From: Methylophaga sp.
GTDB lineage: Bacteria > Pseudomonadota > Gammaproteobacteria > Nitrosococcales > Methylophagaceae
Assembly (NCBI GenBank): GCA_002733105.1
Contig: NVUI01000009.1
Location: 2,438 to 56,203 of the forward strand
Length of the DNA: 53,766 bases
Direction of reading: 5' to 3'
A program made the translations under genes and the position numbers. Of this stretch, positions 2,566 to 21,456 are shown piece by piece (position 1 is the stretch's first letter; each line of letters begins with the position of its first letter). The notes beneath the pieces were generated by a model. It did no database searches. It saw only the letters and a list, made by a program, of their open reading frames with translations, and was not told where the DNA came from.

Positions 2566-2584
2566 TGGTGGAGACGGCGGGAAT
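2566..2584 (-). repeat. Attachment-site copy A: 19-bp duplicate of the ssrA 3' end
   Basis: tggtggagacggcgggaat is identical to 15203-15221, the 3' end of ssrA including its CCA. Sequence diverges at the next base (t versus c). This is the longest distant copy, so it marks the far end of a former or composite integration. Confidence 0.8.
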
Positions 2585-2731: not shown

Positions 2732-2745
2732 TGGTGGAGACGGCG
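2732..2745 (-). repeat. Attachment-site copy B: 14-bp duplicate of the ssrA 3' end
   Basis: tggtggagacggcg matches the last 14 bases of ssrA (minus strand, including CCA); the next bases (tcaat) differ. It is the inner left boundary of the satellite, because integrase-arm-like repeats begin 14 bp inside it at 2760. Confidence 0.75.
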
Positions 2746-2759
2746 TCAATCTAATTCAT

Positions 2760-2828
2760 GTTACCAGCGCTTATTATCACTATGCTGTGACTTTACAAAT
2801 TAAATTGTTACCACCATAGTTACCACCA
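2760..2828 (+). promoter_or_regulatory. Left integrase arm-type repeats (three GTTACCA sites)
   Basis: GTTACCA starts at 2760, GTTACCACCA at 2807 and again at 2819, all in the same direction. The right end of the element holds GTTACCACCA at 15047, GTTACCACT at 15068 and GTTACCA at 15080. The closer pair is 12 bp apart on both sides. Repeats shared only by the two ends of an integrase element are the signature of arm binding sites. The remainder of 2746-3030 holds no gene I can support, only an inverted repeat around 2830-2870 (ccttctttgct / agcaaagaagg). Confidence 0.65.
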
Positions 2829-3030
2829 AACCTTCTTTGCTAAGAAACCTTGTTTTTTTAGCAAAGAAGGTGCAGCCTCAACATAAACATTGCAAAATAT
2901 TTCGTAAAAGTTCTAGCTTGTCCTTCACAACATTAACCCCTGAAAATTACAATACAACATACCAGTTTAACCCTACCTGATCACTCGCCCAGATAAAATT
3001 GCCATACCTAAAAATAGGCCTGTTAGGTTT

Positions 3031-3492
3031 TTATTTATTCCTACCCCCAATAATAAGCAGCTTCCCAATAAATACTCCCATGTAGATATAGCCTAACAGA
3101 GCCTCAACCATCACAAAGAGTTTTACTTGATCGGTGTCAGGCCGAAAATCACCATAGCCTAATGTAGTCCATGTGACCACACTAAAATATATTGAATCAA
3201 GCCAATTTAATTTTACTAAAACCCCACCACTTACTGGTGTCACCACTCCAAAAGATTTGTATATTAATGCAAAATATCTAATTAATAATGGCAACATACA
3301 CAAGTAAAAATAAAGCTTTTCAAACTGAGGAGCACGTAAATATGAATAACTGTAATAACATGTCACACCAGCTATAACGAGAAGACTGCAAGTTAACCCC
3401 CAATACGTTGTTTCAGTTACGGTTAATAAAAAAGACAAAGCGACTGCAGATGACACTAGAAAAATAATTTCATTTTTTAATATAAAGTACAT
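3031..3492 (-). CDS. Potassium-channel-like membrane protein (Ion_trans_2 type)
   Basis: 153 residues with hydrophobic segments about 9-24, 31-47, 60-78, a pore region 97-112 and a last helix 124-148. The selectivity filter TTLGYGDF is at residues 109-116, followed by the outer helix, as in two-helix-pore potassium channels. No cytoplasmic RCK domain is present. It sits at the far end of the satellite, divergent from the putAbiC-like gene with about 200 bp between them. Ion-conducting membrane proteins can act as effectors in phage defence, so a defence role with its neighbour is possible, but the sequence alone shows only the channel fold. Confidence 0.8.
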   Translation of the reverse strand: MYFILKNEIIFLVSSAVALSFLLTVTETTYWGLTCSLLVIAGVTCYYSYSYLRAPQFEKLYFYLCMLPLLIRYFALIYKSFGVVTPVSGGVLVKLNWLDSIYFSVVTWTTLGYGDFRPDTDQVKLFVMVEALLGYIYMGVFIGKLLIIGGRNK

Positions 3493-3703
3493 GACTGTCC
3501 CACCTAAACCACTCTAAGCTAGCTAATAGTAGGCTTGATTTTGTATTGCATAGATCCATCTACTCATTCATGTGTTTGTTATCAACGGACTATATCACCG
3601 TACCGCCTCTCAATATTATAATTTTGCATGCTAGTTAGAATGATAGGATAGAAGTTACACGCATAGAATCACTCCATATCAGCAAGAGTATATGAGGAAA
3701 ATT

Positions 3704-4480
3704 ATGAATTATGTAGAAGAGAAAAGAACAAAAAGTTATCCCTTGCTTGTTAAGTTATTGCTTGTCCTGACTGCTATCGCTGCAATTATTGCCTTGATCG
3801 GAGTTTACGTCTATTACGACCACTTTGGCCGTGATAACTTCTGGAATTTTGGCAATCAAGAATCATTTGGTCTCTTTGGTGACTACATCGGTGGTTTACT
3901 TAACCCCATTTTGACGTTTCTCACTGTAGCTTTGCTTGTCTGGTCAATACAAATCCAAATCAAAGAGTTACAAAAAAGTACTAGTGCCCTTGAAGAAACA
4001 AAAATAGCGCATCAAGAACAGCTAGCTCTAAACATCAAAGAATCAGAACGCAAGCAGTTGCATGATAGTTCAAATATGCATATTAAAAACTGTGAAGACT
4101 TATTAAATAAACCTATATTTGAATTGTTTGTTAACCATAGAAATCACATGTTAAGTATCTACGATATGATTCACGATCCAAAGTATCAGGGTAAAAGCCC
4201 CATAAATGACCTACTTTATACTTTCCCAACAATATTAGAGCAAGGAAACGACTCAAATGCACGTCATCTTTACTCGATTAAGAACCAACTTGCCTTTTCG
4301 ATATCAACCGTCTGCAGTCTAATTACATACTTGAAATTAAATGCTTTGCGTCACTCTTGGGACTCAAGAGTTCAAACTCTTATGGTCGAGTGTAAAGAAA
4401 TAAATATATTGTCCGAAGAGGAGTTCAATGATTTTAAACTGGCATTATTAGGAGCAAATGAAATGGCAAAACCCACTTAG
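3704..4480 (+). CDS. Putative abortive-infection membrane protein (putAbiC-like)
   Basis: I prefer ATG 3704 (258 residues) over ATG 3692, because gagg at 3694-3697 then sits at a normal distance as ribosome site. Two helices are predicted at about 17-38 and 64-83. Between and into the second lies FGLFGDYIGGLLNPIL, followed by a coiled-coil-like segment IQIQIKELQKSTSALEE. The helix / GDyxGGxLNPiltfltv.all / coiled-coil arrangement is what I associate with the 'putative phage abortive infection protein' family (putAbiC). The C-terminal ~150 residues are cytoplasmic and unremarkable. It is the only sizeable plus-strand gene in the island and is AT-rich, consistent with acquired cargo. Mechanism unknown. 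Confidence 0.65.
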   Translation: MNYVEEKRTKSYPLLVKLLLVLTAIAAIIALIGVYVYYDHFGRDNFWNFGNQESFGLFGDYIGGLLNPILTFLTVALLVWSIQIQIKELQKSTSALEETKIAHQEQLALNIKESERKQLHDSSNMHIKNCEDLLNKPIFELFVNHRNHMLSIYDMIHDPKYQGKSPINDLLYTFPTILEQGNDSNARHLYSIKNQLAFSISTVCSLITYLKLNALRHSWDSRVQTLMVECKEINILSEEEFNDFKLALLGANEMAKPT

Positions 4481-4793
4481 ATATATCTAAAATTATCAGC
4501 TATTACTTGGACGTCCTTTGCTTGCAGTTCTTCATCTGTCAGTGTTGAGACCTATCATAAATAGTTGCTTTTTTATCGTGTCAGTAAACCCTTCTTTTCC
4601 TCTGTAAAACACTGAGGTTTTCATGCTCTCAAGAAAGGTGTATATTTAATCTAAGACTTTAACTTCTATTCGTCTGGAGTTGCTTTTTAAGTAACCATTT
4701 CATGCATTGCGACATGATCTTATGTTTCCCAGAGGGTTGTTAAAGTCTTTTTTTTTGGCTTATCCACAGTCACTCAAAGTACAGAGTATATCA

Positions 4794-4943
4794 ATGACAA
4801 ACTATGAATTAGGTATATTTCTCAGGCCATTATTTGCTATCGCTATTATCATTTTAGTTGTTAAGCCAATAGCATTCCTAATAAAGAAAGTGCTTCCTAC
4901 AGGTAAAGTAAAAGACGCTCTATTTAAACAACGATGGCCTTAG
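4794..4943 (+). CDS. Small membrane protein
   Basis: 49 residues from ATG 4794, an in-frame internal start of a longer open frame beginning at 4707. One strong hydrophobic segment (residues about 11-30, rich in Ile/Leu/Val) is followed by a Lys-rich tail. It ends exactly where the convergent minus-strand gene ends (4943/4944). I see no clear ribosome site. In a satellite a 49-residue one-helix protein could be a lysis, superinfection or immunity factor, but no family is recognised. Confidence 0.4.
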   Translation: MTNYELGIFLRPLFAIAIIILVVKPIAFLIKKVLPTGKVKDALFKQRWP

Positions 4944-6992
4944 TTAATTTTGATTAGCCAATAAACTACCTACAATAGGTGCTGCTCGGTTTGTATATTT
5001 CATTGGAATTGATGACATAATTCTTTCGTTCATCTTACGTAGAAGATCGGCTCTGACAGTTGGATCTACAGGTAAGCCTTCAAGTGCTTTTCCTGCCGTC
5101 TTATTGTCTCCCCATAACTTAACCATATCCTTAAGGATCGGCACACCTTTAGCACCTGATCCAACATAATTACGTAATGTGGGTGCTGAATTAGAATGGT
5201 TTACTGAGGAGAAAGGTGGTTGGTACGTCAAGTCTCTGCCAACACGTCCTAATTTATACAGCTTTTCAACATCATTAGGGAATAATACTTCTAATTTCTT
5301 ACGACCAATACTATTCAATGCTTTGTTATAAGCTGCCCCACTAAATGTACCATCTGTACCCTGTCTTTGTGTTGAGGCCATATTAAGCATTTCAATGACT
5401 TCACCTCGAAGGTTAGCCCATGCTTGCTTGCCCCCTTCTGCTTGTTCTAATGTGCCTCTTAATGCTTTCAAATCATTAAGTGAATGGCTTTTAACGATGT
5501 TCTTTATTGCACTGTCGGCGTTCATCTTGCCATTAGTAATTTTTGCTACGATGCTTTGTTCAAACTCAGAGAACCTTGCTTTAGCTGCTTGTCGTGCGCC
5601 AGCATAAGCATCATCACCAATAGCGCTAAATACATCATTATCTAGCTCATCAATAATCAAGCCTTTTACTCTCGCTAATGAACGCTCATTACCGTCACTC
5701 AAGTTATTTACAAACTTTCTTAATCCTTCTGCTTGGTTGATAGTTAGTGTTTGTCCAGTAGGTACGCCTTCAGCATCAAACACGCCATAACGCTGTAACC
5801 TTCTAGCAACTGAATTTGCTATTTTGTCCACACTGGCATCATCTGATAATTCGGACAGTTTGGCACTAAAGCTATCCAAAGTAATGCCGTCTATGTTGCC
5901 ATACTGTCGTTGTGCTCGCTCATACAACTTACCCACTGCTTTTTGTGTCGATGCAAATCGATTATTAACAGCTGTCACTATGGATTGACCAGAGTCGATA
6001 ACATCATCAACAGAACGACCGCTTTGTTTTGCTAAATCATCAAAGATATCAGTAAATTGTCTGTTTTGGTTGAGTAGTCTGCCTGTTATCTCATCACCTA
6101 CACCATCAACCTTTTGAAGGTTACGCTCTTGTGTCCATAGTTTTGGGTTTCGGGTTACTTGACCTGTCATCGGTGCTTTATTGCCGGTAAAGCCTAACTC
6201 TTGCGCCTCAGACATTCTCAGTAAAGATGCTTCATCAATAACACCATTTGTTTTTAACTGTTGCATAGCAGGAGCTGAAATATTTTTCCTATACTTTGCA
6301 GGTACATTTATATTATCAAGAGCATTAGCAACTAAACCTTTTCTTTTAGGCAGATCCATAATATTGCGTTTAAAGGTATCAACCGCCCTTGTCACCCCAT
6401 GTGTAACACCTTTGACTACTGCGGGTGCTGCAGCGCCACCAGCAACGCCTAAGGCTATCTGAGTGGCTTTGCTATCACCTTCTTTGGTAAACATATTCCC
6501 AGCAATTACACCACCTTCAACCGCACCAACCCCCATTGCCCATGGAAGTGATGCAGGTAGTGTTGCCATCATTGCAGGTAAGGTTGGAGCAATCTGTCCA
6601 AGTACTCGTGCAGTATCAAAGCCTTCACCTTGATCATATTCATAACGATTAACTTCTTCAGTGACTTCTTTAGTGTATTGCTCACCTGCTTCTGGATCAG
6701 TTGCATTAAGGTAGTTTTGCTTAACACCCTGTCCTATATCCATCATGCCCCTACCCATTCTAGCCATAAAGGGTACATCGACTTTAGGCTTTCCAAATTG
6801 CATACTACGACTTTTCATATCACTAGACATTGCGCTGGATATAACAGGAGCTTGTTCTGGTTCGCTAACTGTTAGACTGCCATTCGTGTTTTGAAGTGAA
6901 ACTAATGCTTTCGCATATTTCTGTTGAGCCTCAACATCACCTGACTTTTTTGCCTGTTTATAGGCTTGTGCAATAACAGCCTTCTTATCCAT
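4944..6992 (-). CDS. Putative phage internal virion / DNA ejection protein
   Basis: 682 residues from ATG 6990-6992, which follows the upstream stop (6994) by one base; the longer frame to 7031 would overlap that gene and is unlikely. The start AYKQAKKSGDVEAQQKYAKA is like the short helical N-termini of many phage internal proteins ('A...A..AGD..AA..'). A Gly/Ala/Pro-rich hydrophobic stretch at about 130-190 could insert in a membrane, and the rest is helical. Size, position last in a structural train and this pattern resemble P22 gp16/gp20-type ejection proteins (family resemblance only). No enzymatic motif is seen. Confidence 0.5.
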   Translation of the reverse strand: MDKKAVIAQAYKQAKKSGDVEAQQKYAKALVSLQNTNGSLTVSEPEQAPVISSAMSSDMKSRSMQFGKPKVDVPFMARMGRGMMDIGQGVKQNYLNATDPEAGEQYTKEVTEEVNRYEYDQGEGFDTARVLGQIAPTLPAMMATLPASLPWAMGVGAVEGGVIAGNMFTKEGDSKATQIALGVAGGAAAPAVVKGVTHGVTRAVDTFKRNIMDLPKRKGLVANALDNINVPAKYRKNISAPAMQQLKTNGVIDEASLLRMSEAQELGFTGNKAPMTGQVTRNPKLWTQERNLQKVDGVGDEITGRLLNQNRQFTDIFDDLAKQSGRSVDDVIDSGQSIVTAVNNRFASTQKAVGKLYERAQRQYGNIDGITLDSFSAKLSELSDDASVDKIANSVARRLQRYGVFDAEGVPTGQTLTINQAEGLRKFVNNLSDGNERSLARVKGLIIDELDNDVFSAIGDDAYAGARQAAKARFSEFEQSIVAKITNGKMNADSAIKNIVKSHSLNDLKALRGTLEQAEGGKQAWANLRGEVIEMLNMASTQRQGTDGTFSGAAYNKALNSIGRKKLEVLFPNDVEKLYKLGRVGRDLTYQPPFSSVNHSNSAPTLRNYVGSGAKGVPILKDMVKLWGDNKTAGKALEGLPVDPTVRADLLRKMNERIMSSIPMKYTNRAAPIVGSLLANQN

Positions 6993-6993
6993 A

Positions 6994-8181
6994 TTACAAA
7001 CCCTCTGCCTCAATAATTTTGTCGGCAGCACTTAAAATATCAGTGTCCACCTTACCGGTATATTTATCTGGATTGAAGTCAAAACCAGAGAGTTCAGCAT
7101 TAAATTTCATGTTTCGCATAGCTTTGTCTTTAAACTGCTCATATGCACTCATAAACTCTTTCGGGTTCATCTTCACATTCATCATGGATTTTAATAAGTC
7201 TTCCATTTCTTTTTCACTTGCTGCTGCACCTGTTATTTCTCTTCGGTAATCATTAAATAGCTGTCTTGCTTCATTAACAAAACTTGTTCTCTCTGCACCA
7301 AAATCGACTAGCTCATCATCAATACCTAGTTTGCCAAGGAAGTGCCCAGCCATAGACTTAAGCTCACCTTCATAAGTTAGATATTTTTCAGAATATTTAC
7401 TAGTGAGTGCATTGAGATTCATTAACTGTGTTGCAGCTGTAAAGTATCTGTCTTGTACTTTTGTTTTGTTCTGCTTTGTAAGCTGATCAGGCTGTACATC
7501 ACCCGCTGCAAAATCAATCTCTCCATCCTTACCAATACTCAACCTCATTCCCTTGGCTACAGGAGCATTCTCTCCCGCTGCTTGAGACTGAGGCATATAT
7601 GTCACTGTCCCATCTGGATTTTGAACCTTAACCAGTTTTGGTGCGTTTGGTGCAATATGGTTTTGTTTAGCTATAGCGTTATTGTACAAGTCACGTTCTG
7701 GTGAGTTTTCTGGCAATAAGTTTCTATCTTGAAGCAATCCGCCTAAGGTAGATCCCGCCTTGCGGGGTGCATTTTTTAACCTTGCCCTTAACTCATCCAT
7801 GGCATTCATACCAGACAGAACACTACCCTGTTGCTGTGCAGTGTTCTTAAAACCTTGATCCATCAACATGGGTATGCCGCTACTTTTAAGAGCAAAGTTT
7901 CTCTCTGCTAAAAACTTTTGTGAAGGTACGCCATCTGGACTGTTATAGCCTGTACCGGGTACAGCAGGAACACGGTTAATACCCGAAGGTAACCTAGGTA
8001 TGCCTTGTGGTGCTATAGGCTCTCTGCCGATAACTTTATCAGGATTATTGCTATACCAGTCCGATGCTTGCTGAGACTGCTGTTTAGCCATTTCCTGTTC
8101 GTAATAAGCTTGGTCATACTTCATGTTGAAGTCATGGTTACTTAGTTTTGGAGTGCCTTTTAAAAGATCAAGTAAGCCCAT
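6994..8181 (-). CDS. Putative phage structural / ejection protein
   Basis: 395 residues, starting MGLLDLLKGTPK. The first ~110 residues are Gln/Pro/Asn-rich and probably disordered; the C-terminal half is helical. The gene is one base downstream of the previous one and one base upstream of the next, so the three are translated as a unit. I know no enzyme family for it. An N-terminal disordered tail plus helical body, next to two similar proteins behind a small terminase, suggests a virion-internal protein. Confidence in the gene is high, in the role modest. Confidence 0.5.
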   Translation of the reverse strand: MGLLDLLKGTPKLSNHDFNMKYDQAYYEQEMAKQQSQQASDWYSNNPDKVIGREPIAPQGIPRLPSGINRVPAVPGTGYNSPDGVPSQKFLAERNFALKSSGIPMLMDQGFKNTAQQQGSVLSGMNAMDELRARLKNAPRKAGSTLGGLLQDRNLLPENSPERDLYNNAIAKQNHIAPNAPKLVKVQNPDGTVTYMPQSQAAGENAPVAKGMRLSIGKDGEIDFAAGDVQPDQLTKQNKTKVQDRYFTAATQLMNLNALTSKYSEKYLTYEGELKSMAGHFLGKLGIDDELVDFGAERTSFVNEARQLFNDYRREITGAAASEKEMEDLLKSMMNVKMNPKEFMSAYEQFKDKAMRNMKFNAELSGFDFNPDKYTGKVDTDILSAADKIIEAEGL

Positions 8182-8182
8182 A

Positions 8183-8578
8183 TTAACCCCCTGTCAATTT
8201 TTGAATATAAGGATCTCGATGCTGTGGCATAAAATTCTGATACTCAGGCTGCCCACTACCTAACGCCTGCACCTGACTCATAATGTTGCCAGCATTAGCA
8301 AACTGACTCATATCGGGTGCTTGCTGGCTCATGAATTGACTAACAAAAGCCATTTCCTTGTCTTTTCTATCCCTCTCCTGTCTCTCCTGTTCAGCTTGAG
8401 CATTAGGGCTTTGAGGCACAGTATTTTGTTGAGGCAGGTTAGGCGTTGGTGTGCCCGGAAGCTGTGAACCTTGCATTCCCCAATCCTTAGTCGGAACGTA
8501 GGGATTAAATGGTGCTGTCTGCTGCTGAGCGTAAGGATCAGCTCTCTGTGTTTGATAGTAATCAAAAAAATTACTCAT
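8183..8578 (-). CDS. Small Gln/Pro-rich protein, probable phage structural protein
   Basis: 131 residues, very rich in Gln and Pro, starting MSNFFDYYQTQRADPYAQQQ and ending QHRDPYIQKLTGG. A short charged helix (QERQERDRKDKE) lies at about 65-76. It is the first gene of the three-gene ejection-type set, with ggggaag as a good ribosome site before the ATG. A Gln/Ala-rich small protein heading such a set resembles gp7-type partners in P22-like ejection modules (inference). Confidence 0.45.
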   Translation of the reverse strand: MSNFFDYYQTQRADPYAQQQTAPFNPYVPTKDWGMQGSQLPGTPTPNLPQQNTVPQSPNAQAEQERQERDRKDKEMAFVSQFMSQQAPDMSQFANAGNIMSQVQALGSGQPEYQNFMPQHRDPYIQKLTGG

Positions 8579-8709
8579 TTCTTCCCCTCTCTGCCCAATA
8601 TGTTTTCCATTTCATGACCTGTTTATCAATATTTATTACAACTCTAAAACCAAGAACATTTATTACTTATTTATCGTTTTTAGAAATTTCTATGAAATTT
8701 TAACTTACT

Positions 8710-8738
8710 ATTATAGCCCTGTCAATCTATACAAGTAA
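8710..8738 (-). promoter_or_regulatory. Possible promoter for the structural genes
   Basis: On the minus strand, TATAAT (8715-8710) lies 17 bases from TTACTT (8738-8733), a perfect -10 and a weak -35. The 199 bp between 8579 and 8777 are otherwise empty and very AT-rich, and this is the only real break in the train. Confidence 0.35.
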
Positions 8739-8777
8739 TCACCTCGAAAACATAGCTTGAAATTAATTTATTTACCT

Positions 8778-8987
8778 TCAAGAAACACCGCTCATTTTTT
8801 CTTTCTCGATGTCACTAGCCTCAACAAAACTAACAAAAAATATATTATCTATATCGACATCTTGGTTTCCGGTTCGGATAAGTCCGTGCTCCTCTGTTTC
8901 ACCATATTCCAAGATAACTAAAGTCCTGAGATTATCTTTTTCCTTAGTAGCAGCTAATTTATCAACTCTTCTTTTTAACGTGCTCAT
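8778..8987 (-). CDS. Small hypothetical island protein
   Basis: 69 residues beginning MSTLKRRVDKLA, with an acidic C-terminal half. It overlaps the preceding gene by 26 nt. The opening helix resembles the starts of short phage proteins that follow terminase genes. No family recognised. Confidence 0.5.
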   Translation of the reverse strand: MSTLKRRVDKLAATKEKDNLRTLVILEYGETEEHGLIRTGNQDVDIDNIFFVSFVEASDIEKEKMSGVS

Positions 8988-9393
8988 ACCTCCCCTTGGT
9001 TTGTTCTAATTCAGTTACACGGCGTTCGAGATCATCAATCTCTGTGATTTTTGCTTGTGCTGCTATCGTACTCATCAATGTTGAGGCATCTGATGGACTG
9101 ACTTTTCCAAGTGCCAATGCAGTAATAACAGATTGACCTTGTTCAACTAATGTTGCAGTTCCTAGTAATCCATCTATGACTATTGGTTCATCTTTCGCTT
9201 TCAATGCTGGCATTAATCTATCGATACATAACCGTAGTGCTGTTGTATCACCTTCTAAAGCCTTTTCAACAACTGTTTTTACTAAGTCCTTAGCATGAGG
9301 TTCTAGCATGGCTCGTAATGCTGTACGTTTATCTTTTGCACCTTTTGGCTTACCAGCAGGATTACCTGACACCCCCTTCTCAAATTTAGCCAT
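8962..9393 (-). CDS. DUF5681-type phage protein
   Basis: 143 residues. The N-terminus FEKGVSGNPAGKPKGAKDKR is the DUF5681 signature (KGxSGNPxGRPKGxKN), a short Gly/Pro/Lys-rich segment usually found in phage and mobile-element proteins close to terminase genes. The C-terminus is helical, possibly coiled (EIDDLERRVTELEQTKG, about 117-133). Function of the family is not established; proximity to the terminase suggests a packaging role. Confidence 0.7.
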   Translation of the reverse strand: MAKFEKGVSGNPAGKPKGAKDKRTALRAMLEPHAKDLVKTVVEKALEGDTTALRLCIDRLMPALKAKDEPIVIDGLLGTATLVEQGQSVITALALGKVSPSDASTLMSTIAAQAKITEIDDLERRVTELEQTKGRYEHVKKKS

Positions 9394-9429
9394 ACTGTAA
9401 TTCCTCTGTACTTTTCAGTACCTCTATTC

Positions 9430-9891
9430 TCAAGACTCACCCTCACCAGAAACCGTCCCATCAAAGCGCTTTATTTTTAATGCTAGGATTATGTCGCCGT
9501 TAATATCTTGTTTGACAGGTGAGTGATCGCCATCCATCTTATTCAATTCATTAACGGCTCTAATTACATCACTAGCACCGAACTTAAACTCACCTATGCC
9601 TTCACCATCATGGTCGGTTACTTCCTTGTGCTGTAATGAACGCTCTATAACTTCTTTCAACCAATCTTTCTTTTGGTCAGTTGTTATATCTGAGCGTTTT
9701 TTGTTCTCTTCCTGTAGGTCTTTAACCCTTGTGCTAACCTTGTAGTCAGCAATAAGTCTTGATGATGCTTCGTGAATTGTTTCATCCTTCATCTTTTTAA
9801 CACTATAAGCAAAGCGGTATGCCTCACTAGCGTTGCCACATTCAATGTACTTTAGGCAGAAGTTTTCTTGTTTTATGGTTAAATCATTCAC
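9430..9891 (-). CDS. Phage terminase small subunit (TerS)
   Basis: 153 residues. The N-terminal LTIKQENFCLKYIECGNASE with the following AYRFAYSVKKM is the typical 'lT.kQ..F...Yi..GNAseAyr.AY' start of the Terminase_2 family, a winged/helix-turn-helix DNA-recognition domain. A helical central part follows, then the variable C-terminus that contacts the large subunit. Small terminase recognises pac or cos and recruits the large ATPase/nuclease. No large-subunit gene follows, which fits a satellite that uses the helper phage's motor. Confidence 0.8.
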   Translation of the reverse strand: MNDLTIKQENFCLKYIECGNASEAYRFAYSVKKMKDETIHEASSRLIADYKVSTRVKDLQEENKKRSDITTDQKKDWLKEVIERSLQHKEVTDHDGEGIGEFKFGASDVIRAVNELNKMDGDHSPVKQDINGDIILALKIKRFDGTVSGEGES

Positions 9892-9892
9892 G

Positions 9893-10288
9893 TTATTTAT
9901 CCTTCCTATCCATTGGTGCTACTACACCAGTTAACCAGTAATGCTCATCCTCAAAAAAAATAACGCCATCATCCTCACTTTCCATCGTGTCCAACAATTG
10001 CCATACAATGCACGCATCTACTTCACAACAATCAACTGGGTTAAAACCTGTAACAATATCTTCACCTTCATCAGTTTTGATCCCATGTTCTATATCGCTT
10101 ATTCCTTTACGCACTAAATAATCACTATGCTTCATTTTAAGAATAATCACGTAAGGTCGATATTGGCCATGTCCAATGTAAGGATCTTCACCATCAAGTA
10201 ACCTTCTTACTCGTAGAACTCTGCCTGGATTGTTTTTAAACCATCCCCAATCTTCTTTACTTAGTCTTTTTGTTAATTCTGTTTCCAT
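9893..10288 (-). CDS. Hypothetical island protein
   Basis: 131 residues, acidic, no signal or membrane segment. Segment YRPYVIILKMKHSDYLVRKG lies about 43-62 and a strongly acidic stretch near the end. It overlaps the upstream gene by 16 nt and ends one base before TerS, so it is part of the same operon. Not recognised. Confidence 0.55.
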   Translation of the reverse strand: METELTKRLSKEDWGWFKNNPGRVLRVRRLLDGEDPYIGHGQYRPYVIILKMKHSDYLVRKGISDIEHGIKTDEGEDIVTGFNPVDCCEVDACIVWQLLDTMESEDDGVIFFEDEHYWLTGVVAPMDRKDK

Positions 10289-11070
10289 GTATTTAAACTT
10301 TCCTCAATAACACGATCGTAATATTCATCATCTGTTTCATTTGAGCACTGGCTGTACTGATAACTTGTTGAACCAGTCACTGTCTTTATAGTTGTTTCAT
10401 AGTCATCAGTTCTAACAGAGATAGGTTTTATATGGGATAATGGTCTTATGTAATGTTTGAAGCTTGTAAGTGGGATTGAAATGGTAGGTGAAGCCAAGTA
10501 ACAATGTGCCTTTTCAGCTTTTTCCATTACCAGTTCATTGCCATTTTTTTGCTTATTTTTTGCCAATCCATTGCCAATCCATTGCTTGTTTTTTGTCACT
10601 TCAACCACATTTAAACACTTAGGCTTTTGGCTTCTTTTTTTAGCCTTTAACGTACCCGTTTCAAACCATTCATCTGTAACAATTGGAGCCGTAGATGTAA
10701 GTTTTGTTGCTTTAAGGTAATGCTCAATTAGAATTGTTTTTGCATCTATATATTCAGCTATAAACTCACAACCCATTAAATGTTTAAGTAGCTGATTTGC
10801 ACGACTGAATCTGCTTGTTGGGTTTTCACCTATTGTAGTTCTGTATATTTTTGCAAAGTCACTATTGTGTTGAACCGAATAATTACCTTTCGGAGTTTTA
10901 TTCACATTAAAGAACTTCGTTAAGAAAAGGCCTCCTTCTATTGTTACCAGCTCAAGGATAAAGACTGTCTTAGCCCCTCCTGAAGTGTTTATATTAGCTA
11001 TTCGAACACCAACACATTCACATACAGCAGGGGCGTAAGTAGTCCAGCCTGATCTATCAATATCTGGCAT
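10273..11070 (-). CDS. Hypothetical island protein
   Basis: 265 residues. The first ~120 residues form a compact, possibly beta-rich domain (VCECVGVRIANINTSGGAK, then FARANQLLKHLMG-like helix near 88-99). The middle and end are basic and Ser/Thr-rich and look disordered. It abuts the preceding gene with no spacing. Position between the HTH protein and the packaging genes would suit a replication or regulatory factor, but no primase, helicase or nuclease motif is visible. Confidence 0.55.
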   Translation of the reverse strand: MPDIDRSGWTTYAPAVCECVGVRIANINTSGGAKTVFILELVTIEGGLFLTKFFNVNKTPKGNYSVQHNSDFAKIYRTTIGENPTSRFSRANQLLKHLMGCEFIAEYIDAKTILIEHYLKATKLTSTAPIVTDEWFETGTLKAKKRSQKPKCLNVVEVTKNKQWIGNGLAKNKQKNGNELVMEKAEKAHCYLASPTISIPLTSFKHYIRPLSHIKPISVRTDDYETTIKTVTGSTSYQYSQCSNETDDEYYDRVIEESLNTWKQN

Positions 11071-11331
11071 TTACAAATTTTCTCTTTCTACGTATAACCC
11101 CATTAGAAAGTCATGAATAGCCTTTAGCTGCTCGACACTCATCGTAACTAATGCATCTAAATTGATACCCACATCAGGCATAGTTATGGCTAATTCTTGC
11201 GTATGAAGAACCATCCTTTGCCAAACTATTAATGCAGGAGTATCATTGAGATTGTTTAGTAGAGAGCCCTTATTACTTTCGTCGGTACGAGGGTTTTTCT
11301 TTGTCTGCTGTATCTCCTCGAAGGCAATCAT
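11071..11331 (-). CDS. Hypothetical island protein
   Basis: 86 residues, mainly helical after about residue 30, with no membrane segment. It overlaps the upstream gene by 4 nt (start and stop shared in ATGA fashion), showing translational coupling. No family recognised. Confidence 0.55.
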   Translation of the reverse strand: MIAFEEIQQTKKNPRTDESNKGSLLNNLNDTPALIVWQRMVLHTQELAITMPDVGINLDALVTMSVEQLKAIHDFLMGLYVERENL

Positions 11332-11588
11332 TCTTTAATACCTCCACTGAAATAGCCATACTCAGCCTGCCTATGTTTACGGCCTGTAATATCACGCTCA
11401 TTAGTTAAGGTAGTGACAATATTATGTCCCAAACGTCGAAGCTCAAGCACACGTGGAGCTGGGGACATAATTCCAAGTTCTTCACGTGCTTGTAAGGTTG
11501 TTAGCCTTGCATGCTCTAAAAGGTGTTTTAGAATTTTCTTACGATCAATATCTGCAGTTGGAGGATGATGCTCTATTACATTGCTCAT
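11328..11588 (-). CDS. Small helix-turn-helix protein
   Basis: 86 residues. From about 17 to 65 it reads KKILKHLLEHARLTTLQARE, ELGIMSPAPRVLELRRLGHN and then a short beta hairpin, the usual winged-helix plan of small phage HTH proteins (recognition helix near PAPRVLELRR). It starts two bases after the AlpA-like gene. A role as an early regulator of the satellite is likely but unproven. Confidence 0.6.
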   Translation of the reverse strand: MSNVIEHHPPTADIDRKKILKHLLEHARLTTLQAREELGIMSPAPRVLELRRLGHNIVTTLTNERDITGRKHRQAEYGYFSGGIKE

Positions 11589-11590
11589 AG

Positions 11591-11791
11591 TTATGCCGCC
11601 GCCTCTGTACGAGAGGCGGCTATACGATCTTCAATCCATTGCTGGACTTCAGAAGCAACCCAACCACTTGACCTAACGCCTAATTTAATTTGCTTCGGGA
11701 AGCCTCGCTCTTTCATAAAGTCATAGATTGTTGAGCCACTTAAGCCTGTTAATCTAGAGACTTCTTTTAATCTTAATATTTGCTGTTCCAT
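11591..11791 (-). CDS. AlpA-family regulator / excisionase-like protein
   Basis: 66 residues. LRLKEVSRLTGLSGSTIYDF (6-25), then KERGFPKQIKLG and WVASEVQQWIEDR, follow the AlpA/MerR-type small DNA-binding fold, including the conserved 'tGlsrstiY...kxg.FP...klg...v.W...ev..Wi'. Such proteins switch on the integrase or act as excisionase in P4-like satellites and PICIs. Two copies of ATATTAGGG lie upstream (11832 and 11863). Confidence 0.85.
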   Translation of the reverse strand: MEQQILRLKEVSRLTGLSGSTIYDFMKERGFPKQIKLGVRSSGWVASEVQQWIEDRIAASRTEAAA

Positions 11792-11831
11792 ATCCTAACT
11801 CTCCGGCTGTTGTCGAAATGACAATTGCAGA

Positions 11832-11871
11832 ATATTAGGGTTTGCTGTTTCCTGAACGCGCTATATTAGGG
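11832..11871. repeat. Two direct repeats ATATTAGGG upstream of the AlpA-like gene
   Basis: ATATTAGGG occurs at 11832-11840 and 11863-11871, 31 bp apart (three helical turns). The second overlaps the end of the preceding gene. The spacing suits an operator, but nothing else supports it. Confidence 0.3.
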
Positions 11872-11872
11872 A

Positions 11873-12529
11873 TTATTTTTTCCCTGATTTTGCATTACGC
11901 CATTGGCTCAACACACTAGTTACTGTTCTTCCGCTTGGAATAGGGGTAATTCCTACCTGACTATAGAAATCAGCCATAAAGTTATAAAATTCACCTGCAT
12001 AGTTATTATATTCTGACCCCCTTATTTTCCAGCAAGTTGGCTGCTCTCCTTTTTCCTCTAACCAAGTATTAGCTAAACTTGATACCACTTCCCATGCTTT
12101 ACTTTTTGGCCTTGTCCCTTCGCTATTCTTCATATCTATAAGACCAACTTCTGATGCTAATCTTAAATCAACTAAATCACTTTCTAATCTTCCTAAAATT
12201 GCATGCAGATCACCAACATCATTATCGTAAATTTCTATGAAACTATTAAGATAATTGTGCTCTCGTTGTCCTAGGTTTGAGATAGATTTTTGTAACCCAT
12301 CTATTTTAGTGTGTAGTGACTGAATAGGCTTTCTTCGACTCTTAATATCTATGGTTTTCTGAGCATGTATTTCTATCTGGGCACAAGCACCTTCAAGCCT
12401 CACTCCTAATTTACGTACATCATTAAAACCATATTTCGTAGAAAGTGTGTCTGCCAACAATTCAAAGGCTTTATTTTTAGCCTTTCTTTGTTCTTTGTTC
12501 TTTGCTTGATCCTTATAGATTTTTTCCAT
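11873..12529 (-). CDS. Hypothetical coiled-coil island protein
   Basis: 218 residues, Lys/Glu-rich. Helical and probably coiled-coil from about 1 to 130 (KIYKDQAKNKEQRKAKNKAF at the start). The last 70 residues form a separate segment with TCWKIRGSEYNNYAGEFYNF and a basic end. No membrane part. It stands alone between a terminator (12551-12610) and the AlpA-like gene. Unknown function. Confidence 0.55.
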   Translation of the reverse strand: MEKIYKDQAKNKEQRKAKNKAFELLADTLSTKYGFNDVRKLGVRLEGACAQIEIHAQKTIDIKSRRKPIQSLHTKIDGLQKSISNLGQREHNYLNSFIEIYDNDVGDLHAILGRLESDLVDLRLASEVGLIDMKNSEGTRPKSKAWEVVSSLANTWLEEKGEQPTCWKIRGSEYNNYAGEFYNFMADFYSQVGITPIPSGRTVTSVLSQWRNAKSGKK

Positions 12530-12550
12530 GCGTCATTCCTCGCATCGTCC

Positions 12551-12610
12551 AAAAAAAACCAAGCCAACCGGCGAACGTGACCGGCTTTTCGGGAGCTACC
12601 CTAGGCTTGG
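12551..12610 (-). terminator. Rho-independent terminator after the S24-like gene
   Basis: On the minus strand, CCAAGCC (12610-12604) pairs with GGCTTGG (12565-12559), enclosing a further AGCCGG/CCGG hairpin, and is followed by eight T (12558-12551). It separates the S24-like gene from the next. Confidence 0.55.
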
Positions 12611-12631
12611 GTTGACTGGTTATTTTATAAA

Positions 12632-12943
12632 TTAAAGTCCGCGCGTAGAGTTAATGAGTATTGCACGACCTTTCACATTAATATCATGTTGATCTACAGA
12701 TATATTCAAGCTTCCATCATCTGAGGCAAGAATTATTTTATGTCCATCTTGAACAAGCCTACAAATTAACTCTTTCTTGGCATACTCAATAGCATAAACG
12801 CCCTTATCAACAATTTCTTGGCTTGCCTTATCAATAAGCACAAGATCCCCGTCACCTATTGTCGGCAACATGCCATCACCCGTCATCGTTATATTTTCAA
12901 AATCTACAAGTGTTCTAGATTTGTAGCTCTCTAAATTCATCAT
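12632..12943 (-). CDS. Stand-alone S24/LexA-like repressor domain with lost catalytic residues
   Basis: 103 residues, equal to the C-terminal domain of a CI/LexA-type repressor with no DNA-binding half. TGDGMLPTIGDGDLVLID lies at 21-38; in the S24 family this is GDSMxPTxxxGDxVlvd, with Ser as the nucleophile, so Ser has become Gly24. The second strand reads ELICRLVQ where active proteins have the catalytic Lys before Arg; here the residue is Cys61. It can therefore still dimerise but should not self-cleave. ATG at 12943 or the following ATG may be the start. A dominant-negative or anti-repressor role is an inference; decay is the alternative. Confidence 0.7.
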   Translation of the reverse strand: MMNLESYKSRTLVDFENITMTGDGMLPTIGDGDLVLIDKASQEIVDKGVYAIEYAKKELICRLVQDGHKIILASDDGSLNISVDQHDINVKGRAILINSTRGL

Positions 12944-12992
12944 AATAGTGCCCTCTTACATTTAAGAAAATTTAACAAAGCCTTTGGCTTTT

Positions 12993-13223
12993 TCATGTTT
13001 TCACTACCATTCCTAACACTTCAAAATCCATATCATCAGTAATCATCCACCTTACATATTCAGGAATATCTCCACTAACCTCAAGACCCTCAGGCAAAAA
13101 TTGAAGTCTTCTAACCCATTCCTGCTCACCTACACGAAAAACATAAAGACCATCGAACAAAAATTCTTTTACATTGGAATCAACCTGAAAAGGGTCTCCA
13201 CCCCCAAATGCTCTCTCATTACA
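12993..13223 (-). pseudogene. Fragment of a phage repressor C-terminal (S24) domain
   Basis: An open frame of 76 codons without any usable start reads GGGDPFQVDSNVKEF, then FDGLYVFRVG, WVRRLQFLPEGLEVSGDIPE and DFEVLGMVV. This matches the second half of S24 repressors (VDtsvkef..DGiYvfrv....vKRLq.lp.g...vsDNP.y....i......iiGrvv). The conserved Lys of KRL is Arg here (VRRL). The DNA-binding half is missing and the frame is closed upstream by TGA, overlapping the end of the neighbouring small gene in another frame. It looks like the stump of the element's original repressor. Confidence 0.6.
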
Positions 13224-13354
13224 TCATCTTCGGCAAAAAAGATTTGCAACTTTTCTTTGGAAGAATCACGATGCTTTAAGAGAAATACAGCCTTCTCAAA
13301 TACAACAGCATTAGCTGCATCAATATCAGCAGTGCTTTTATTTACCGTAGTCAT
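13169..13354 (-). CDS. Small hypothetical protein (paralogous start to the gene upstream)
   Basis: 61 residues starting MTTVNKSTAD. The upstream gene starts MTTLNDSTAK, and the 30 bases around the two starts are nearly the same (GTAGTCATAATT on the plus strand at both), so the leaders were duplicated. Its ATG overlaps the upstream stop by 4 nt. No family recognised, and the end runs over the S24 fragment in another frame. Confidence 0.45.
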   Translation of the reverse strand: MTTVNKSTADIDAANAVVFEKAVFLLKHRDSSKEKLQIFFAEDDVMREHLGVETLFRLIPM

Positions 13355-13719
13355 AATTTTTCCTCAAGTTCTATTTGTTCTGCTTCAGCAACCGCCGCTG
13401 AGGCAGATAGCAGCCTTACTTCTGCTGACTCCATTACATCAACAATTATCTTGTAAACATCCAAAATATTACTAACACGATCAAGCATATCCATAGCCGT
13501 ATCAGGATCTTTATTTACCATTTCAACCATTTCTGCTTTAGTTTTTGTCGTCAAAATATATGCTAATCGTCTTCCAACCCCTATTTCTTCTTGTCTTTCC
13601 CTCAAAAAATTTTCTTCTTTTTCAACATCTTTCATTGTCTTTTCAGGCTGAAAACCTACTCCCGCCATAAATTCCATAGTTACTGGTTCTTTTGCAGTGC
13701 TATCATTTAGCGTAGTCAT
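13351..13719 (-). CDS. Hypothetical acidic island protein
   Basis: 122 residues, acidic, mostly helical. Starts MTTLNDSTAK; no motif, signal or membrane segment. It is the first gene of a pair with the 61-residue protein downstream, and lies behind the integrase with about 100 bp between. Confidence 0.5.
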   Translation of the reverse strand: MTTLNDSTAKEPVTMEFMAGVGFQPEKTMKDVEKEENFLRERQEEIGVGRRLAYILTTKTKAEMVEMVNKDPDTAMDMLDRVSNILDVYKIIVDVMESAEVRLLSASAAVAEAEQIELEEKL

Positions 13720-13753
13720 AATTAAAGCTCCTGTTTAGCTTTGGTTTTGATTA

Positions 13754-13785
13754 GTCAGGTCTGGTGTTCAAGCACCTTTCCTGAC
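13754..13785. repeat. Imperfect hairpin between integrase and next gene
   Basis: GTCAGG and GGTG pair with CACC and CCTGAC around a 6-base loop, with a symmetric 3-base bulge (TCT/TTT). No T-run follows, so an operator or a structured leader is as likely as a terminator. Confidence 0.4.
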
Positions 13786-13824
13786 GATTGTGGTTATCCT
13801 TTCCGTGTTACTTCCATAAACTTA

Positions 13825-15045
13825 TTAATTCTTATCTGCTCGATTAATAGGTACAACATCTGCACCACTAGCTAATCCATCCAAGTAATCAGCCCAAGAT
13901 TGCATCATTTTTTTACGTTCTGGTAGATATTGAGCATAGTTATATGCTGCTCGTACCCCATTTTTTTCACCATGGGCTAACTGTCTTTCAATAGCATCTC
14001 TGTTCCATCCCTGTTCGTTCAGAATGGTAGAAGCCATACTTCTGAAACCGTGAGCTGTCATTTCTTCTTTGGTATATCCCATTCGCCTTAGTGCAGCGTT
14101 AACGGTGTTATTGCTCATTGGCCGTGTCTTAGTGCGATTACTAGGAAAAACGTACTTATCACGCCCTGTAACTGGCTCTATATTTTTTAATACGGCTATT
14201 GCTTGTTTAGATAAAGGTACGATGTGAACCACACGCATTTTCATCTTCTCTGGTGGTAACCGCCATTCAGCATTATCTAAATCTATTTCTGACCATTCAG
14301 CCTGTCTTAACTCCCCGGGACGAACAAATATTAACGGCGATAATTTTAGGGCTGTAGCTGTGATGGTAGTGCCTGAAAAGTCTTTGATTGCTCTCATCAA
14401 TGCACCAATTTTCACGGGCTCAGTGATTGAGGCATGATGTTGTACTCTTGTGGGTGGTAAAGCACCTTTTAAATCAGCTGCTGGATCACGTTCAGCACGT
14501 CCTGTTGCAATGGCATATCTAAACACTTGCCCACAGATCTGATTAACACGATGAGCAGTTTCTAACGCCCCTCTATTCTCAACACGTCTTAACACTGAGA
14601 GTAATTCAGGTGCGGTAATGTCATTAATGTCTTTATTACCTAACCAAGGGAAGGCGTTTTGTTCTAGCCGAATTAATGTTCTTGTTGAATGGCTCTCTGA
14701 CCAATTGGCACTGAATTTACTATGCCACTCACGAGCGACTGCTTCAAAGCTGCGTTCACTAATTGTCCGTTTGTGAATTTTGTCCATCTTGCGCTCGTAT
14801 AATGGATCTAGTCCATCAGATACGATTGCTCTAAATTCATCTCTTTTAAGTGTGGCAGCTTTTAATGTTATTTCAGGATAAGTTCCCACCGACATTTCTT
14901 TTTGCTTACCACCAAAGCGATAACGAACACGCCACCACTTGCCTCCATTAGGTGAAATAATTAGATAAAGTCCAAGACCTGCTGAAAGCTTATATTGCTT
15001 TTCTTTAGGCTTAGCGTTTCTTATCTGAATATCAGTTAAAGCCAC
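13825..15045 (-). CDS. int: Site-specific tyrosine integrase (DUF4102-type N-terminus)
   Basis: GTG at 15043-15045 gives 406 residues starting (M)ALTDIQIRNAKPKEKQYKL, the usual opening of P4-type integrases; the longer frame to 15090 merely reads through the arm repeats (MMVTLVVTHEVVVVT) and is rejected. The N-terminal arm-binding domain is followed by a core-binding domain (about 100-180) and the catalytic domain with Arg in RPGELRQ, His/Arg in HGFR, His in LAHGE and Tyr in YNYAQYLPER. The gene sits beside ssrA-end copy C and reads into the element. Its start is inside the repeats at 15047-15086, so integrase binding could repress its own promoter. Confidence 0.93.
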   Translation of the reverse strand: MALTDIQIRNAKPKEKQYKLSAGLGLYLIISPNGGKWWRVRYRFGGKQKEMSVGTYPEITLKAATLKRDEFRAIVSDGLDPLYERKMDKIHKRTISERSFEAVAREWHSKFSANWSESHSTRTLIRLEQNAFPWLGNKDINDITAPELLSVLRRVENRGALETAHRVNQICGQVFRYAIATGRAERDPAADLKGALPPTRVQHHASITEPVKIGALMRAIKDFSGTTITATALKLSPLIFVRPGELRQAEWSEIDLDNAEWRLPPEKMKMRVVHIVPLSKQAIAVLKNIEPVTGRDKYVFPSNRTKTRPMSNNTVNAALRRMGYTKEEMTAHGFRSMASTILNEQGWNRDAIERQLAHGEKNGVRAAYNYAQYLPERKKMMQSWADYLDGLASGADVVPINRADKN

Positions 15046-15046
15046 T

Positions 15047-15086
15047 GTTACCACCACCACTTCATGAGTTACCACTAAAGTTACCA
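15047..15086 (+). promoter_or_regulatory. Right integrase arm-type repeats (three GTTACCA sites)
   Basis: GTTACCACCA begins at 15047, GTTACCACT at 15068 and GTTACCA at 15080, same direction as the three left-end copies. The last two are 12 bp apart, matching the left pair. They overlap the 5' edge of the integrase gene. Confidence 0.65.
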
Positions 15087-15140
15087 TCATTTATGGTGGG
15101 AAGTCTATAGTCTTTATTGGACGTTACTGGAGTATAAAAA

Positions 15141-15165
15141 CACGAAACCCCGCATAAATGCAGGG
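15141..15165 (-). terminator. Terminator for ssrA supplied by the island
   Basis: Minus-strand CCCTGCAT / ATGCGGGG forms an 8-bp stem with a TT loop, followed by TTTCGTGTTTTTA. It lies within the element, about 40 bp beyond the ssrA 3' end, so it replaces the terminator separated by integration. Confidence 0.75.
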
Positions 15166-15202
15166 CTTAGTGGTCTTTCTTGGATGTCCTAGGACAAGTA
15201 AA

Positions 15203-15221
15203 TGGTGGAGACGGCGGGAAT
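15203..15221 (-). repeat. Attachment-site copy C, within the ssrA 3' end
   Basis: The functional 3' end of ssrA, tggtggagacggcgggaat on the plus strand, duplicated at 2566 (19 bp) and 2732 (14 bp). The T-stem/acceptor end of a tmRNA is a well-known integration target, and the gene is regenerated on integration. Confidence 0.85.
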
Positions 15222-15561
15222 CGAACCCGCGTCCGCAAATCCTCCGCTTTCGGATCTACATGCTTATTTCATCTATTATTTTAACTATCAGCTACCCGAT
15301 GAACAGGGAAAACAAATAGCGATCTTGTTAAGGTTTTAGTCTATCAGTACCAAGCATACGTCAAGCTTATCTTATGAGAATCGACCCCTGATATCTGAAC
15401 GCATAAGTACGGCTTCAGTCAGAGGCTAGCAAGCCTAAGCTGCTAGGGCGTAGTTGTTATCGTTTGCAACTATCATTGTGTTAGTCTTTTTTACGAGAAG
15501 AACTAACATACTCGGCATGCACCTTAAGTTTTGTAACCCACGTCGAAGCCAGGTCGTCCCC
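15203..15561 (-). ncRNA. ssrA: tmRNA (transfer-messenger RNA)
   Basis: 359 nt. The 5' end reads GGGGACGACCTGGCTTCGAC and the 3' end TTCGATTCCCGCCGTCTCCA followed by CCA, so the tRNA-like domain can close and carries an encoded CCA. The tag frame (15467-15435) is GCA AAC GAT AAC AAC TAC GCC CTA GCA GCT TAG, giving ANDNNYALAA. The YALAA end is the protease recognition tail. It rescues stalled ribosomes together with SmpB, whose gene is 59 bp upstream. A perfect promoter is not seen; AGTATA on the plus strand at 15583-15588 (TATACT, minus) could be its -10, with 5' processing. Confidence 0.96.
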
Positions 15562-20596: not shown

Positions 20597-21352
20597 ATGA
20601 AATTAAATAAAATAATCACCTTTGCTTCATTAGGATTAATGTTATGTGGCCATGTATTTGCCACAGAAACTAAAATAATGGTACGTGCAAAAGCAGTGGA
20701 TGCTAAATATATTGGTACTAGTGTGGGTGGTGTCAAAGTTGTGGTTGAAGATGCAGAAACCGGTGAGATTCTTGATCAAGGTTGGATTAATGGTGACACC
20801 GGTAGCACGACCGCTATTATCGAACAACCGATCAGTCGTGGCCAAGTCATGACCGATGACAAAACAGCGGGGTTTCTAGCCACACTCGATTTATCTAGCC
20901 CACGCTTAGTCCGTTTTAAACTTATCGGGCCTTATGGTTACCGTCAAGCATTACAAGAAGCGACCGTAACTAGTTGGGTGATTCCGGGTAAAGATATACT
21001 CGGTGATGGCATCACCCTAAATATGCCAGGGTTTATCGTTGATGCATGGACTCGTGTATTAGCCAAAGGCCAAGTTGATATTTATACCAAAGCGACCATG
21101 TTATGTGGTTGTCCTATTTATCAAGATGGCCCATGGGACCCAGATAATTACGAAGTCACCGCCATTATTATGCAAAATGAAGTCAAAGTAAGTGAGGTCA
21201 CTCTCGATTTCACCGGACCTGTTAACCTGTTTTCAGCTAAAACGACCTTAACTGAGTCTGGTCACTACAAAGCAATTGTCTATATTTTTGATAAAAAAAC
21301 AGGGAATGTTGGTGTTGATCGCACTATGTTTGAGATTGAGCTGGACCAATAA
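20597..21352 (+). CDS. Secreted conserved protein with CGC motif
   Basis: 251 residues. Signal peptide MKLNKIITFASLGLMLCGHV with cleavage likely after VFA (23). The mature part is beta-rich with two repeats of an immunoglobulin-like pattern. TMLCGCPIYQDGPWDPDNYE at about 172-191 holds a CxC pair that could bind a metal or be modified. I do not recognise a named family. It is followed after 104 bp by an MNIO enzyme and its DUF2063 partner, so it could be their substrate or a partner in metal or sulfur handling (inference). Confidence 0.6.
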   Translation: MKLNKIITFASLGLMLCGHVFATETKIMVRAKAVDAKYIGTSVGGVKVVVEDAETGEILDQGWINGDTGSTTAIIEQPISRGQVMTDDKTAGFLATLDLSSPRLVRFKLIGPYGYRQALQEATVTSWVIPGKDILGDGITLNMPGFIVDAWTRVLAKGQVDIYTKATMLCGCPIYQDGPWDPDNYEVTAIIMQNEVKVSEVTLDFTGPVNLFSAKTTLTESGHYKAIVYIFDKKTGNVGVDRTMFEIELDQ

Positions 21353-21456
21353 TTTTTCATTGCCCATAGCATTTATATGTCATGGGGATTTTTGTAACAT
21401 TTCTACTGATTAACTGTCTTTTAATGATAGATACTCAATATCAGGGGATAACTTAA

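Follow-up and report, generated by a model that had tools for sequence, protein, structure and literature searches.

What kind of element is a 12.5-kb insertion in the transfer-messenger RNA (tmRNA) gene, ssrA, of a Methylophaga sp. that codes for a terminase small subunit (TerS) and for podophage-type DNA-ejection proteins, with no recognised virion shell to go with them? The insertion lies in a 53,766-nucleotide stretch of contig NVUI01000009.1 (97 kb), the whole of which we call the window, from an assembly of 2.06 Mb that is 82.5% complete. A sequence-only reading of the window had described an element in ssrA with an integrase at its end, AlpA, TerS and a DUF5681 protein, and ARAGORN/Rfam, Pfam and PHROGs searches recovered each of these (Table 1). 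With moderate confidence, we regard the element as an AlpA-type phage satellite in ssrA with an added podophage DNA-ejection cassette, one that would load its own gp20-gp16 pair into the heads of a helper podophage.

The larger of the two ejection-type genes encodes a 682-residue protein; sequence comparison shows it to be a homologue of the ejection protein that P22-like podophages encode at the gp16 position. A tblastn search of 50,697 phage records matched nine at E ≤ 0.1 (best 7e-16), and its phage relatives include EBPR podovirus 1 gp25, Pseudomonas phage PAE2, and gene 32 of Aeromonas phage 4_4512, which is annotated as a DNA transfer protein; the annotated order in 4_4512 is gp10, gp26, a small gene, a gp7-like gene, a DNA transfer protein and gene 32, and the ejection genes of P22 run 7-20-16. 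In IMG/VR, an alignment-based scan recovered relatives at 23 loci, and the closest relative found anywhere was the gp16 of a prophage in genome G217 (also locus L044; 34% identity, phmmer 2.6e-95). The gp7-position genes that precede gp16 in podophages matched a DNA-ejection PHROG in all five cases tested; the gp7-position gene of G217 matches one. Two of 15 aligned members of the gp16 family matched phrog_342 (internal virion protein with endolysin domain), two matched phrog_5880, and others matched endolysin or lytic-domain families; the window protein itself had no PHROG match at 1e-3, and its Pfam match to a lambda tape-measure family stayed below the cut-off (19.7 bits against 23). In the structural comparison proposed in the sequence-only reading, the predicted model (predicted local distance difference test, pLDDT, 66; predicted template modelling score, pTM, 0.51) had 59 matches among predicted viral structures in BFVD at E ≤ 0.001, one of them named an injection protein, but none in the PDB at that level. 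Sequence searches of the PDB were set aside, the matches returned being all weak and to proteins that are designed or unrelated.

The preceding gene encodes a 395-residue protein that also appears from its relatives to be homologous to the gp20-position proteins of podophages. A tblastn search of the same 50,697 phage records gave no match for it; a scan of IMG/VR with a three-sequence alignment confirmed 16 loci with relatives, and the motif TGxAxxEKEM is invariant in 10 of 10 aligned sequences (the window and nine of these 16 loci). Over residues 234–361 the protein is 53% identical to a protein of contig L061, a podophage by its head and tail matches in which the gp20-like gene is flanked by a 284-residue gene before and a 750-residue gene after, and phmmer matched the window protein to the gene at the gp20 position in podovirus ctkAd229 (E 7.3e-8). 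Its predicted structure was poor (pLDDT 50). The sequence-only reading had assigned all three tightly packed products to the internal-virion type; homology and gene order uphold this for the 682- and 395-residue proteins, and the 131-residue Gln/Pro-rich protein is gp7-like in position and composition only, gp7 homology being a candidate assignment.

The tmRNA gene (15203..15561, − strand; Rfam RF00023, 211.7 bits, and ARAGORN) is the insertion site. The window has just three + strand copies of a 14-bp attachment (att) core, TGGTGGAGACGGCG, which start at 2566, 2732 and 15203. Two of them, those at 2566 and 15203, extend to 19 bp (TGGTGGAGACGGCGGGAAT), and the copy at 15203-15221 lies in the 3' end of ssrA. 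Because the core is confined to these three positions, the element should end near 2732 or near 2566, giving it a size of 12.5 kb with the inner att copy or 12.6 kb with the outer. The outer copy is a correction to the sequence-only reading; it may be the true end of the element or a relic of tandem integration, and the 166 bp separating the copies at 2566 and 2732 may be a relic of an earlier integration. The 14/19-bp repeats and the integrase are both present, as is general for an integrated satellite. A DDE transposase (PF01609) lies at 1483-2469, close to the outer copy, and the flanks also hold, by eye, a REP transposase, an RHS-like gene and housekeeping genes.

No large terminase (TerL), portal, capsid, tail or lysis gene was recognised in the 12.5 kb. 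All 18 named open reading frames (ORFs) of the element were scanned with Pfam and 12 of the 18 also with PHROGs, without a TerL, portal, capsid or lysis family being found, and 24 podophage head and tail query proteins (some named by position only) had no match in the window at a threshold of E 1e-3; neither the families nor these queries revealed a tail or lysis relic in the element. As a control, the queries matched none of the five satellite-side records (the window, L007, L008, L009 and L056) versus 35 of 45 podophage-side records, a count that includes self-matches of the two records (L061, L069) that supplied queries. The ten podophage-side records without a match (L029, L045, L048 and L070-L076) are short or divergent; the ORFs of L029, L045, L048, L070, L071 and L073 were read by eye. 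Across the element's own assembly (82.5% complete), none of PF03354, PF16510 and PF03237 was found. Because a full virion gene set was not found in the element, it would depend on a helper.

A class-wide search with the 395-residue protein matched two of 369 genomes, that of the window and G381, from another family. In G381 the match falls in a 17.2-kb element bounded on both sides by identical 49-bp copies of the 3' end of tRNA-Phe (contig positions 62963 and 80127), with the gene order integrase, a protein without assignment, O-like replication protein, DnaB, TerS (Terminase_2), second TerS (phrog_309, 4.1e-49), a 118-residue gene, gp20-like (423 residues), gp16-like (668 residues) and other genes. 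The layout thus recurs, here at tRNA-Phe. Among 19 of this element's ORFs, scanned with Pfam and/or PHROGs, the TerS pair gave the only head, packaging or tail family match, and the 24 head and tail queries had no match in it. The gp16-like protein of the G381 element matches the gene at the gp16 position in podovirus ctkAd229, and the element's gp20 and gp16 are 57% (over 188 residues) and 29% identical, respectively, to their counterparts in podophage L069. There was no significant BlastP match between the window and G381 gp16 proteins, and their family profiles aligned weakly (hhalign E 2.2e-5, probability 76%). Because the G381 pair resembles that of L069, and because the two gp16 proteins have no BlastP match, the two cassettes derive from different podophage lineages. 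From the end of TerS to the start of gp16 the distance is 2.4 kb in the window and 2.2 kb in G381, versus ~12.9 kb (G763/L012) and ~18.2 kb (G773/L047) in the two podophages with related TerS. For 25 out of 50 podophage-side loci, the whole record or genome, in some cases a fragment, was compared with a profile of this TerS (built from the window, G381 and the same-genus genome G010); two of these 25 podophage-bearing records matched. Just past gp16 in the G381 element is a C4 antisense RNA (RF01695; L008 14847-14926, − strand); the RNA of the window element is instead an int-alpA RNA, in the early region.

Elements carrying ejection genes look rare or undersampled. The window was alone in having its gp16 among 57 genomes of its family and 63 of its order; across the class the gp16 profile matched three of 369 genomes (the window, the G217 prophage and orphan genes in G239) and the G381-type profile one of 369 (G381), and within G381's order its gp16 was found in one genome of 17, itself. 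The genome-collection scan gave two loci, both prophage-like. Across the phylum, the gp20 profile matched two of 339 genomes, of which that in G601 was set aside (E 1.9e-4, internal stop). Other hits were examined and not taken as satellites: L022 and L023 (a short IMG/VR contig with integrase and gp16) are podophage ends with coat and tail matches, G217/L044 and L045 look by their ORFs like prophages, L047-L051 and L061-L076 look like podophages (ORFs of five and six, respectively, read by eye), and the TerS matches in G030/L057 and G042/L058 were taken as phage, the adjoining ORFs looking by eye like large terminase and portal. A same-genus contig, L056 (G010), has an integrase, an apparent helix-turn-helix protein and a TerS 56% identical to that of the window, followed by two genes without an ejection-protein match before the contig ends 3.2 kb past TerS; this suggests that the ejection cassette may have been added onto a TerS-bearing backbone. 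At 4069-11450, L056 also encodes a 420-residue protein without assignment and, by eye, a 302-residue ADP-ribosylglycohydrolase-like protein, possible cargo.

The satellite proposed in the sequence-only reading is thus supported in part, by its att bounds, by TerS without recognised TerL, portal or capsid, by two ejection-type proteins and by the independent G381 element, and several observations weigh against it. When the 395-residue protein was compared by hhalign with two P22-type gp20 proteins, those of 4_4512 and L031, the two sides did not align (E 0.14), so that the label gp20 denotes position and podophage family. The window gp16 matches none of the 16 gp20-bearing IMG/VR loci and the window gp20 has no match to the gp20-position protein of G217; the nearest relatives of the two therefore sit in different phages, and no single phage was seen with a co-evolved version of the window pair. 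The 131-residue protein had no detected relative in Pfam, PHROGs or profile comparison, no replication gene was recognisable by Pfam or PHROGs (three family-less proteins of 131–265 residues remain), the same three families (PF03354, PF16510 and PF03237) revealed no helper podophage in the 82.5% complete assembly, and two elements only were found, with no close relative of either. Furthermore, the gene order is the one to be expected if a podophage carrying a Terminase_2 TerS had undergone an internal deletion. The main rival is accordingly a defective prophage, an ssrA-integrated P22-like podophage in which deletion removed the TerL-gp14 block, the tail spike and the lysis genes and left the ejection genes behind; we judge it unlikely, though it has to be taken seriously. 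TerS before and gp7-gp20-gp16 after the block supposedly lost is the P22-type order, the window element is known from one genome only, and a podophage ancestor is possible since two of the 25 podophage-bearing records have this TerS family. However, 23 of those 25, some of them fragments, have no match to it, and the three cassette genes are intact reading frames that run in one direction with 1 bp between neighbours and, by eye, have Shine-Dalgarno-like sequences. The early region is of AlpA type with an int-alpA RNA, no lysis or tail relic was recognised, and the G381 element has a nearly identical compact layout from another podophage lineage. That the locus is no satellite at all, but a random phage-derived island, seems very improbable: orphan gp16-like genes do sit in chromosomes (G239), but ssrA att repeats, a terminal integrase, AlpA, int-alpA RNA and TerS occur here together, and G381 has its own perfect att repeats. 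The two G239 genes (G239:C1 794488-795570 and 1709124-1709789; L042 9474-10811 and L043 8738-9766), which encode gp16-like proteins of 445 and 342 residues, were not counted as satellites, no other phage gene being seen near them by eye, and are possibly domesticated ejection proteins.

Satellites often interfere with their helpers, and the ejection-type proteins might instead be a weapon, a foreign gp16 or gp20 entering helper virions and spoiling DNA delivery, which we consider improbable. The experiments that bear on this were done in P22. P22 gp7, gp16 and gp20 are dispensable for assembly and essential for DNA delivery, and they are taken into the particle if available, entering at the procapsid stage (PMC4992974). 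P22 carrying a mismatched Sf6 gp16 incorporates the protein and forms virions that make no plaques, as a weapon would predict; yet Sf6 gp16 and gp20, each of which fails alone in P22, work when supplied together (PMC10883804), and both elements pair gp20 with gp16, the combination that restores function, where a poison would need just one. Their own TerS genes also imply that working particles matter. The whole P22 7/20/16 set can be replaced by that of Sf6, L, CUS-3 or HK620 to give working phage, although the exchangeable gp16 proteins are mostly 22–26% identical; Sf6 gp7 is exchangeable alone, and with the HK620 set SieA exclusion is evaded in part (PMC10883804). These exchange data make it plausible that a satellite with an ejection cassette could substitute the ejection proteins of its helper, and a gp20-gp16 pair without recognisable gp7, as in both elements, fits the pair-matching rule of P22, with the caveat that the relatives of the window pair lie in different phages.

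The mobilisation of such a satellite, the identity of its helper, its packaging, the incorporation of its proteins and its benefit we infer as follows. A P22-like podophage would infect the cell or be induced, AlpA and the integrase would excise the element, and the satellite TerS, perhaps with the DUF5681 protein, would steer the helper large terminase onto satellite DNA. The gp20-like and gp16-like proteins would enter helper procapsids during assembly, so that the particle would have the shell and receptor-binding tail of the helper and would cross the periplasm and inner membrane through a satellite-coded conduit. The likeliest benefit would be delivery into cells that block the helper's ejection proteins, such as helper lysogens with SieA-type exclusion.

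Like the Gram-negative phage-inducible chromosomal islands (PICIs) EcCICFT073 and EcCIMP1, the element has an integrase, an AlpA-type regulator, cargo and a suitable length (12.5 kb; PICIs, ~12–15 kb); it differs from them in carrying ejection-type virion genes and in that neither a primase nor a Rep was recognised. Phage vB_EcoP_Kapi1 is a P22-like podophage. It mobilises EcCIMP1, which has no identifiable capsid or terminase genes (PMC11773190). Some PICIs, the Staphylococcus aureus pathogenicity islands (SaPIs), use their own TerS (PMC6092414). The same source defines PICIs by the absence of structural genes and by an att site never occupied by prophages; because the element carries gp16-like and gp20-like genes, we term it satellite-like, of the packaging-redirecting type, and not a PICI. 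The phage-inducible chromosomal minimalist islands (PICMIs) of Vibrionaceae are likewise small, with an integrase and AlpA and without capsid genes, but no terS, sid or ppi homolog was found in PICMI115, whereas the element has a TerS, and the word ejection is absent from that PICMI text (PMC10803314). For satellite AH14b, its authors found no encoded terminase or virion protein (PMC4936722). In P22-like podophages, homologs of gp16 and of the gp20-position protein are arranged as in the element; the element differs from these phages in having no recognised TerL, portal, coat, tail or spike and no recognisable gp7. Capsid-forming PICIs (cf-PICIs) encode their own capsid. The element, in which no capsid or portal match was found, resembles these and Mulch/Flayer as a satellite encoding part of a virion, but Mulch/Flayer encode encapsidation machinery (PMC10690885) and the element is the reverse, with ejection proteins and no capsid.

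Table 1. Features of the ssrA element, in window coordinates.
Feature	Coordinates	Strand	Evidence
Outer att copy, 19 bp	2566..2584	.	exact repeat of 15203-15221
Distal att copy, 14-bp core	2732..2745	.	exact repeat of 15203-15216
Cargo short ion-channel protein, 153 aa	3031..3492	-	PF07885 1.1e-14
Cargo protein, 262 aa, membrane-anchored by eye	3692..4480	+	phrog_8999 1.6e-14 (family of unknown function)
gp16-like ejection protein, 682 aa	4944..6992	-	podophage relatives; alternative GTG start 7031
gp20-position ejection-type protein, 395 aa	6994..8181	-	homology to podophage contig L061 protein
Gln/Pro-rich protein in gp7 position, 131 aa	8183..8578	-	17.6% Q, 10.7% P; position only
Small ORF without family match, 69 aa	8778..8987	-	ORF
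DUF5681 protein beside TerS, 143 aa	8962..9393	-	PF18932 3.1e-14
Terminase small subunit (TerS), 153 aa	9430..9891	-	Terminase_2 PF03592 8.2e-10; phrog_51 4.8e-18
Protein without significant family, 131 aa	9893..10288	-	ORF
Protein without significant family, 265 aa	10273..11070	-	ORF
Protein without family match, 86 aa	11071..11331	-	ORF
Winged-helix protein (HTH_39), 86 aa	11328..11588	-	PF14090 4.2e-14
AlpA regulator/excisionase, 66 aa	11591..11791	-	PF05930 1.3e-22
Protein without significant family, 218 aa	11873..12529	-	ORF
int-alpA RNA	12545..12611	-	Rfam RF02996, 48.7 bits (cut-off 35.8)
S24-type repressor C-terminal domain (fragment), 103 aa	12632..12943	-	PF00717 7.1e-9; phrog_4 2.3e-11
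Small protein without family match, 61 aa	13169..13354	-	ORF
Small protein without family match, 122 aa	13351..13719	-	ORF
Tyrosine integrase, 421 aa	13825..15090	-	Pfam PF22022, PF00589, PF13356

The distal cargo pair, an ion-channel and a membrane protein (3031-4480), is perhaps anti-phage; PADLOC reported no defence family among the ten proteins submitted, and the pair has no PADLOC match. Outside the element, contig L007 encodes at 3-2598 what appear by eye to be an RHS/YD-repeat protein (its C-terminal part), then a small gene, then a REP-type transposase that runs into the window, and the three genes at window 20597-23050 resemble a bufferin/MbnB-type (DUF692) operon.

Known satellites take over tails, make capsids smaller or supply a capsid of their own. 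More tentatively, and with appreciable doubt, we suggest that the window and G381 elements could represent a distinct kind of satellite that arose at least twice, in which the satellite's own TerS (with a second TerS or DUF5681) would redirect packaging and its own gp20-gp16 ejectosome would refit podophage heads, so that membrane crossing and sensitivity to superinfection exclusion would become the satellite's own. In open-licence PubMed Central text, none of the matches listed described a satellite that carries podophage ejection proteins, and no paper combined the terms phage satellite and ejection proteins. If such a satellite exists, it would explain why an element without a capsid retains large virion genes, and it would make envelope crossing a module that can be separated and traded, and over which satellites, helpers and exclusion systems come into conflict.

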